From contig MEPC01000019.1 of NCBI GenBank assembly GCA_001769655.1, positions 62,001 through 126,000 on the forward strand: a DNA stretch of 64,000 bases. The letters are read 5' to 3'. Positions 37,105-39,788 of the stretch are shown piece by piece; the first letter of the stretch is position 1; the number at the start of each line of letters is the position of its first letter. The notes beneath the pieces were generated by a model. The model was given only the letters and a program-made list of their open reading frames with translations, did no database searches and was not told the DNA's origin. Both the position numbers and the translations under genes were made by a program. The stretch is from Bacteroidetes bacterium RIFCSPLOWO2_12_FULL_37_12. Its GTDB lineage: Bacteria > Bacteroidota > Bacteroidia > 2-12-FULL-37-12.

Positions 37105-39315
37105 ATGCAAGCCGGTAAAATTAAATTTTTTCTTCTGCTACTTGCGTATTTTTCTTTTTTATTTTCCATCTATTGCCAACAAAATGATTCCCTTCTAAGT
37201 ATTGTAAATAACCCGGTATATTCATGTAACGGATGCCCGGCAGATACCCAACGGGTGAATCTCCTCATCACTGTTTCAGAAAATTATTGGAGAAACGGTA
37301 ACTATGAAAAAGGATTCATTTATGCTCGTCAGGCGGAAATATTAGCTGAGAATATTCGGTTTCCTTCGGAAAATAAAAGAGGATGGGAGAAGGGAATGGG
37401 TGCAGCTTTTTTTAACATGGGTATCACCTGTTATTATAAGGGTATAAATCCCACGGCTAAAAAATTTTATACCAAAGCATTAAATTATCAGACGCCTCAT
37501 ACTGATTTTAAAGGAATGGCGCGTACCTTAGGTTGTCTGGGCAACCTCGAGCAGGCAACAGGTAATCTGGATCTTGCTATGGAAAATTATTACAAATCGT
37601 TGAAAATTTCCGAAGAAATTAAATACCTTAAAGGCATGGGTTCTTCCCATAATAATTTAGGTAACTTTTTTAATTTCAGGAAGGAATATGATAAAGCGCT
37701 CCTGCATTTTAACACCGCGTTGAATATTTATCAGGATTCTACCAATCAACCTGAGCGAAACAAACGCAACATTGCCACTATTTACAACAATATAGCTTTG
37801 ATTTATTATGATAAGAAGGAATATTCAAAATCATTGGAGTTGCAATTGAAATCATTAAAACTGAAAGAAGAATCGGGTGACATTTCCGGAATTTATTATG
37901 CGCATAACAATATCGGAAATCTTTATGATCAGATGGGAGATTCAGCATTTCGTGCAGGAAATAATAAAGTTTCTTTGGAATATTACAAACAGGCATTACA
38001 AACCTATCATTCCATACTTCCTACTATTTACAATTCCGGGGATCAAGACCGTTTAGCATCTGTTTATATAAATATCGGCATTGCAAATTTACGTTCCCTG
38101 AACCCGGATTCGTCCCGGTTTTATTTGAAAAAAGCCCTCCGGTTGGTTGAAAAAACCCACAATAAGGACTTATTGAAAATTTGTCACAGGGGATTGTATG
38201 AAACAGAAAATTACTTAGGAAATTATCAGCAATCCTTACAACATTACAGGCAATTTATTTCCTACCGCGATAGTTTGTACAATGAAGAAACCACAAAAGC
38301 AACCCTTACCCGTGAAATGAATTTTCAATTCGAAAAAAAACAGTCGGAAGAAAAACTCGAGCAGGAAAAAAAAGATGCGTTGGCAAAAATGGCGATGGAA
38401 CGTCAAAAAATGATTAATTACAGCGCCTTTGCTGGTCTCACTGTCATTCTGATTATTTCCGTCATTATTTTTAGAACACTCACTATTACACGAAAACAGA
38501 AAAAAATTATTGAATCGGAAAAAAAATTATCCGATAAACTTCTTCTGAATATACTCCCTGCTCAAACGGCTGAAGAGTTGAAAAAAAACAATTGTGTGGA
38601 GCCAAAACATTTTGAATCGGTGACCGTTTTGTTCACCGACTTTAAAGGGTTTACGCAAATAGCCGAAACGTTAAGCGCCGGCGAATTAGTGAAAGAACTT
38701 GATTTTATTTTTAAGGAATTTGACAGAATTATTTCTTTTTATGGAAAACAAGATAGGGCATCTCTAAAAACACCATTAGTGTCCCTCTCTCGGAGAGGGC
38801 AGGGAGAGGAAAAAAATCAGTTTTTAGAGATGCCCGTTTCCAATTCAACGAGAGGTAACGCAGTAAATGGTTCCATCGAAAAAATTAAAACCATTGGCGA
38901 CAGTTACATGTGTGCCGGGGGATTACCATTGGTTAACGAAACCCATCCCTATGATGTAGTTCGTGCCGCTATTGAAATAAATGAATTTATGAAGTGTTTT
39001 ACTTCCGGTAATTTCATAGCCATTAACGGAGAGAAAAAACAACCGCTGGCGCCCTGGCAATTACGAATTGGAATTCATACAGGACCCGTTACCGCGGGAG
39101 TGGTTGGAGATGCTAAATTTGTTTATGATATTTGGGGGGATACTGTAAATATGGCAAGCAGAATGGAGAGCAGTGGCGCACCCGGCAAGATAAATATTTC
39201 TCATGCTACTTATCTGTTAATAAAAGGTAAATTTAATTGCGTTTCTCGAGGAGAGATTCAAGCCAAAAACAAAGGAATGGTAAAAATGTATTTTGTGGAA
39301 GGTGAGATTGGTTAG
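37105..39315 (+). CDS. TPR-class III nucleotide cyclase with a 43-residue insertion in the catalytic domain
   Basis: 736 aa. Signal peptide, about six TPRs (residues 60-395), coiled coil, one TM helix (YSAFAGLTVILIISVIIF), then a class III cyclase domain. Metal Asp residues are D512 (VLFTDFKGF) and D599 (IKTIGDSYM); the purine-site Lys is in EKIKTIGD; the transition-state region is YDIWGDTVNMASRMES. In class III cyclases the two Asp are 44 residues apart; here they are 87 apart. The extra sequence coincides with an 80-bp palindromic element (38756-38835). The frame is intact. It probably senses protein interaction through periplasmic TPRs and makes cAMP or cGMP. Confidence 0.9.
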   Translation: MQAGKIKFFLLLLAYFSFLFSIYCQQNDSLLSIVNNPVYSCNGCPADTQRVNLLITVSENYWRNGNYEKGFIYARQAEILAENIRFPSENKRGWEKGMGAAFFNMGITCYYKGINPTAKKFYTKALNYQTPHTDFKGMARTLGCLGNLEQATGNLDLAMENYYKSLKISEEIKYLKGMGSSHNNLGNFFNFRKEYDKALLHFNTALNIYQDSTNQPERNKRNIATIYNNIALIYYDKKEYSKSLELQLKSLKLKEESGDISGIYYAHNNIGNLYDQMGDSAFRAGNNKVSLEYYKQALQTYHSILPTIYNSGDQDRLASVYINIGIANLRSLNPDSSRFYLKKALRLVEKTHNKDLLKICHRGLYETENYLGNYQQSLQHYRQFISYRDSLYNEETTKATLTREMNFQFEKKQSEEKLEQEKKDALAKMAMERQKMINYSAFAGLTVILIISVIIFRTLTITRKQKKIIESEKKLSDKLLLNILPAQTAEELKKNNCVEPKHFESVTVLFTDFKGFTQIAETLSAGELVKELDFIFKEFDRIISFYGKQDRASLKTPLVSLSRRGQGEEKNQFLEMPVSNSTRGNAVNGSIEKIKTIGDSYMCAGGLPLVNETHPYDVVRAAIEINEFMKCFTSGNFIAINGEKKQPLAPWQLRIGIHTGPVTAGVVGDAKFVYDIWGDTVNMASRMESSGAPGKINISHATYLLIKGKFNCVSRGEIQAKNKGMVKMYFVEGEIG
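38756..38835. repeat. 80-bp palindromic element inside the cyclase gene
   Basis: Perfect 16-bp terminal inverted repeats (38756-38771 and 38820-38835, GGGCATCTCTAAAAAC type) enclose a second perfect hairpin CCCTCTC-TCG-GAGAGGG. The element lies in the cyclase reading frame between the two metal-binding Asp codons. Its CCTCTC/GAGAGG core recalls the AAAGACCTCAC family at 17030, 58917, 59030 and 60919. Confidence 0.85.
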
Positions 39316-39434: not shown

Positions 39435-39788
39435 TTAGTATTTAGAGGCGCCAAACCGTTTTAACAAATGCACTTTCTTTTCATTTCTCCATCCCGCCTG
39501 CGATTCATATTTTACATAATAAATTTTCAAGTCGGCTTGTGATTCATATTCCACAAAATAAATTTTAATATCCGCCTGGCTTTCGTATTTTACCGGAAAC
39601 CATAGCCCATCTTTGTTTGCCTGAGAAGAATATGATACACAATATACTTTCAAATCGGCTTGCGATTCATAGTTGACGGCAATTATCTTTAAGTCCGCCT
39701 GGGATGAATATTTTACTTCATACACCTTTTGGGGGAAGGTGGGATGAGAACTGAAAATTAGCGCCGTTATAAATAGATATTTTTTCAC
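39435..39788 (-). CDS. 7(1) septoil knot-like repeat protein (DUF6150 type)
   Basis: 117 aa from GTG at 39788. A signal peptide (KKYLFITALIFSSH) is followed by six or seven short units of about 14 residues with core YESQADLKIY-x-V (variants SSQADLK, SSQANKDG, ESQAGWRN). This spacing and the SQAD core match small Bacteroidota proteins annotated as 7(1) septoil knot domain proteins, predicted to have one of the most complex known backbone knots. I recognise the family from pattern only. Function unknown; probably periplasmic or secreted. The promoter -7 box is at 39811-39818. Confidence 0.65.
   Translation of the reverse strand: MKKYLFITALIFSSHPTFPQKVYEVKYSSQADLKIIAVNYESQADLKVYCVSYSSQANKDGLWFPVKYESQADIKIYFVEYESQADLKIYYVKYESQAGWRNEKKVHLLKRFGASKY

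Follow-up and report, generated by a model that had tools for sequence, protein, structure and literature searches.

An IS5-type miniature transposon family with in-frame copies in Bacteroidota genes, including the catalytic domain of a class III adenylate cyclase

The best-known palindromic elements translated as part of conserved proteins are those of Rickettsia. Rickettsia palindromic elements (RPEs), about 150 bp in length, are short repeats that lie in frame in many unrelated genes and are translated, at fold-compatible sites in proteins (Ogata et al., 2000, 2002, as summarized in PMC10969869). Measured against this description, the family reported here (subfamilies A and B) is alike in being translated, in frame, in seven ORFs of unrelated genes. 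It differs in its Bacteroidota host, its length (80/89 bp vs about 150 bp), its IS5-like ends with 4-bp target duplications, and the use of more than one reading frame by subfamily A. In being translated as part of proteins, the A/B family works like RPEs, a likeness of behavior rather than a claim of RPE membership, with a single-frame peptide seen in only some of the copies.

Other relevant elements are miniature transposons (MITEs). Coxiella QMITE1 and QMITE2 have a long palindromic stem and are sometimes in frame within ORFs (PMC5896051). The A/B elements are likewise palindromic-stem MITEs with some in-frame copies, but they have another host and sequence and sit inside conserved catalytic domains, whereas the in-frame QMITE copies that have been reported lie in hypothetical proteins or at the ends of genes (PMC5896051). 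MITECca01 of Cardinium, which is derived from IS982, about 240 bp long and mostly intergenic or within other mobile elements (PMC9769881), is also an IS-derived MITE of a Bacteroidota genome; the A/B family, however, is IS5-type and 80/89 bp long. Like IS5-type bacterial MITEs, A/B elements share their ends with an IS5-family element, lack a transposase and have a constant short duplication, but unlike them 7 of 18 copies are in frame within genes here, with few such copies in the other genomes examined. We regard A/B as a new family of IS5-type MITEs, a kind of element already known. It is notable for having inserted in frame repeatedly within one Bacteroidota genome (nearly 4 Mb long), two of the insertions lying in catalytic domains, those of the cyclase and of the SpoIIE phosphatase.

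A dispersed palindrome in the cyclase gene

The original prediction described an 80-bp palindrome that splits, in frame, the catalytic domain of a class III cyclase in the window (the whole 64,000-nt stretch of DNA that was analyzed), with perfect 16-nt inverted ends and an inner hairpin between the codons of the two metal-binding aspartates. This description was borne out (Table 1). The arms are 16 nt long, 100% complementary and 48 nt apart, and the RNA of the element folds at -38.5 kcal/mol vs -20.6 in shuffles (z = -5.7). The ORF is open throughout the palindrome, which encodes R551-P577 (RASLKTPLVSLSRRGQGEEKNQFLEMP), and is coding on both sides. Pfam matches were found for TPR and Guanylate_cyc (161 bits), the catalytic domain match being broken into two stretches. 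As had been claimed, all other catalytic residues are kept: the adenine-specificity Lys/Asp (EKIKTIGD, YDIWGD) and the transition-state Asn/Arg (TVNMASRME) form, together with the two metal Asp, invariant columns in two alignments. Beside the cyclase, at 39435-39788 on the minus strand, is a gene for a small 117-aa protein built from repeats like YESQADLKIYFV.

Table 1. Positions of features at the cyclase locus (numbered in the window) and host proteins of the in-frame copies.
Feature	Position	Strand	Basis or host
TPR-repeat class III adenylate cyclase, 736 aa, insertion host	37105..39315	+	ORF, Pfam
Metal-binding Asp 1 codon, D512	38638..38640	+	FTDFKGFT motif
129-nt (43-codon) segment, residues 548-590, absent from all relatives	38746..38874	+	Alignments with paralogues and relatives
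Left flank GATA, target-duplication position	38752..38755	+	Flank comparison; right flank 38836-38839 = GTTT
MITE copy, subfamily A, 80 bp	38756..38835	-	Core in minus orientation; 8 genomic copies
Left terminal inverted repeat GGGCATCTCTAAAAAC	38756..38771	+	Arm pairing
Inner hairpin CCCTCTCTCGGAGAGGG	38783..38799	+	Core common to other A copies
Right terminal inverted repeat GTTTTTAGAGATGCCC	38820..38835	-	Arm pairing
Right flank, 39 nt, VSNSTRGNAVNGS, extra segment not covered by element	38836..38874	+	Single copy in genome
Metal-binding Asp 2 codon, D599	38899..38901	+	KTIGD motif
In-frame copy L001			Class III adenylate cyclase
In-frame copy L003			7TM-SpoIIE phosphatase
In-frame copy L006			Subtilase-like protein, weak Pfam match
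In-frame copy L008			Protein without family assignment
In-frame copy L062			PMT_2-like membrane protein, below curated cut-off
In-frame copy L075			LysM protein, element just after signal peptide
In-frame copy L099			DUF1574 protein, B element

The insertion is also visible in the distance between the metal-binding residues. D512 and D599 are 87 residues apart where 44 had been given as the rule for class III cyclases, and our survey agreed: 80 loci were fetched from GTDB genomes, 72 domains were measurable, and the spacing was exactly 44 in every one (72/72). Three paralogues from the same genome, aligned with the host cyclase, also have a spacing of 44, read FDEIISKYPIEKIKTIGD and are without the insert. 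The long spacing without a palindrome, which had been named as the observation that would speak against an insertion, was seen in 0 of the 72 measured relatives. In a separate search of 60 relatives, matches stop at residues 546/547 and restart at 589-591. The extra segment defined by these alignments is placed between helix alpha2 and strand beta2, and the palindrome covers 27 of its 43 codons, or 28 if a 4-bp duplication is added. The 45 of 129 nt left over after element and duplication might stem from a further insertion or from a loop that was already longer in the ancestor. The right flank was considered as another repeat and rejected, as no second copy was found in the genome. No close orthologue matching the whole cyclase protein was present in the contigs of the genomes searched, which included no relative nearer than class level.

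The palindrome is a member of a dispersed, transposon-like family and not a one-off. The 80-mer is found at 8 places in its own genome (82-100% identity), which is beyond chance; in the alignment, ends and core are common to all eight, and the sequence of the cyclase copy is unique to that copy among them. Searching with the pattern of the terminal inverted repeats (TIRs) gave 58 matches vs 1 for a reversed control. A sister subfamily, B, has the same layout in 87-91 bp and at least 10 copies in this genome, for about 18 A/B copies in total, which are typically 80/89 bp long, carry 16-nt ends (GGGCAYYTCTAAAAAY, common to copies) and are without a transposase. Among 395 genomes of the class, a covariance model detected relatives of the family in 11 besides this one, and some of these have ten or more copies each. 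The in-frame palindromic insertion originally predicted stands and is now seen as one copy of a repeated mobile element that is also in frame in other genes.

No Rfam family was found above threshold, and a plasmid search for the element gave no match. We considered a functional RNA motif and set it aside: covariation between the arms of different copies is confined to two positions (end pairs), which is expected of transposon ends too. At L039, L047, L060, L081; L046, L082 (own genome), we observed longer elements (131-141 bp) whose ends are the same but whose cores differ. The cores consist of CACATAGG repeats or TTGTCTTTTGTCCAG..., and it seems that ends of one kind have picked up several cores.

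IS5-type ends and target duplications

The ends of the elements were also found with transposase genes. An IS5-family transposase in genome G095 (NF033581, 178.7 bits) has the exact element end ATTTTTAGAGATGCCC about 160 bp downstream, as the right end at G095:C46. Related transposase genes occur in a 1304-bp element with the same kind of ends at both sides (L288), with TTAA-flanked ends (L294; TTAA duplication) and with the end AGGCACCTCTAAAAAC (L295). Because these ends are shared with IS5-family transposase elements in relatives (L275, L288, L294, L295), the elements are IS5-type MITEs. The search for an autonomous IS5 partner in the own genome returned only two C-terminal remnants, below cut-off, and the source may have been lost or may be missing from the draft genome. 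A partner transposase in the same genome is usual for a MITE but not obligatory. No TIR pairs at IS-like distance were seen among the matches listed for six genomes.

Identical 4-bp flanks border 34 of 59 copies from four genomes, with about 4 expected when the right flanks are shuffled (11/23 in the own genome, 1.6 expected; 23/36 foreign copies, 2.7 expected), and 5-bp flank matches number 0 and 1, respectively. The targets are A+T-rich, with TTAA and TATA the commonest, and 4-bp duplications are typical of IS5-group elements. Ends and target duplications together provide a plain transposition mechanism for translated palindromes.

A search for a target duplication had been proposed for the cyclase copy and, once run, found no intact 4-bp duplication there (GATA / GTTT). 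This mismatch makes the insertion event at this site less certain and leaves the identity of the repeat unaffected, since the match to the family is whole-length. Judging from the flanks, it is plausible that the duplication was lost by decay under coding drift, as GATA is the reverse complement of TATC, the target at the SpoIIE copy, and the flanks of the in-gene copies L006, L008, and L062 are one base apart.

The insert in the cyclase and competing explanations

An AlphaFold2 model (60 sequences, monomer, without ligand) reached a mean pLDDT of 86 and a pTM of 0.83, with the core mostly at >=90. In fragment numbering, helix alpha2 extends to residue 78 and strand beta2 begins at 122; for residues 92-117, in the insert, pLDDT falls below 50. 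The best PDB structural matches of the model are the class III cyclases 5o5k and 5oyh (TM-score by target about 0.9). In the model, the insert joins beta2 at the end opposite D599, which comes after the strand. We infer that the insert is a disordered external loop at the alpha2-beta2 turn and that the cyclase core is intact. The structure prediction was among the checks first suggested, and it gave a high-confidence core and a disordered insert but did not support a position within helices that flank the active site, since the modeled turn is at the opposite strand end from the metal Asp. With the core predicted intact and the insert away from the catalytic Asp, activity loss would not be the likeliest outcome, although a confident AlphaFold core is no proof of activity.

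We consider it very probable that a non-autonomous MITE, of the kind mobilized by an IS5-family transposase, inserted into the cyclase gene and duplicated 4 bp of target, the site being a surface turn that joins helix alpha2 to strand beta2. Element and duplication would make 84 bp (28 codons), one open frame of the element would match that of the gene, and translation would read through the element to produce an extra disordered loop. The cyclase would then most likely still fold and work, with the insert as tolerated baggage and not a regulator. Counted against this explanation are the duplication that is not intact here, an extra segment exceeding element plus duplication by 45 nt, the lack of an intact IS5 partner in this genome, and the fact that a close relative with an empty site was not among the genomes searched.

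It is also conceivable, though unlikely, that the insertion damaged the cyclase, the loop hindering dimerization or folding and the gene becoming a pseudogene that is tolerated by virtue of at least five other cyclases. Class III cyclases act as dimers, the insert is large and disordered, and the five other Guanylate_cyc genes (at least five) found in the genome amount to redundancy. Nevertheless, the frame and all catalytic residues have been kept throughout the domain, even though decay has apparently reached the duplication at the flanks; this suggests that the gene has been selected for some time. The core, moreover, is predicted to be intact. That the insert gained a function, whether by serving as a loop for regulation or interaction or by forming an mRNA hairpin that slows translation between subdomains, is very unlikely: the strength of the hairpin, the two covarying arm positions, and the precedent of translated palindromic elements described from Rickettsia (PMC10969869) would fit such a role, but transposon ends that must fit one transposase would be expected to covary just as well, and three frames are in use among the A copies in other proteins, so these are not under selection for one shared peptide. 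We give hardly any credence to an artefact of assembly or to a structural element of the REP or terminator type. While the C/T-rich core hairpin resembles other structural repeats and the genome is a draft of 43 contigs, the 4-bp duplications, the ends common to IS5-family elements, the unique sequence of the cyclase copy among the eight, and in-frame coding on both sides all argue for insertion of a MITE instead.

In-frame copies in other genes

Seven of the 18 A/B copies examined, in the cyclase and six others, lie within ORFs whose reading frame the element does not interrupt (Table 1). The SpoIIE copy is the cleanest, with an intact TATC duplication, a split Pfam match, and about 29 extra columns compared with homologues, where 84 bp predict 28 codons. 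All seven in-frame copies (7/7) have a length of 80 or 89 bp, giving 84 or 93 with the additional 4 bp, both multiples of three, and no copies of 79, 87, or 91 bp were found inside genes among the 18. This pattern is suggestive only, since the sample is small and a gene disrupted by an insertion is less easily recognized. Five of the seven in-frame copies, the three B copies among them, are read in one and the same frame of the element (..LK....FLEMP/FLEVP), and the A copies L006 and L008 each in a further frame of its own. Few of the copies in three other genomes were inside ORFs.

The family may have been shaped as frame-neutral, persisting by harmless translation inside proteins in convergence with RPEs, a tentative reading that we regard as unlikely. 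It draws on the commonest lengths (80 and 89 bp), which become multiples of three with 4 bp added, and on the one to three open frames kept in most copies. If it were true, the element family would be a route for proteins to gain new loops. The phenomenon is now testable, as proteins with and without the insert are directly comparable.

Several further observations concern coding repeats. In the DUF1574 protein (L099:678-1772), the peptide REESRKIEFLEAP upstream of the B element resembles the B-peptide end NKKIEFLEVP and is perhaps, from its sequence, an older decayed copy within the same gene. At L079:1506-1594, a gene whose upstream open frame runs for 501 codons takes its last residues and its stop codon from a B-element copy. 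Finally, the catalytic domain of sister cyclases in the same genome (L134:1750-1924, paralogue at G000:C23; same in L136 and L137) holds an in-frame insertion of another kind, just before the RIGIHTG strand. Its purine-rich and pyrimidine-rich arms (35 nt) are 83% complementary, it encodes GEGEKGGKGESEKGG..., and it is possibly another repeat-derived loop.
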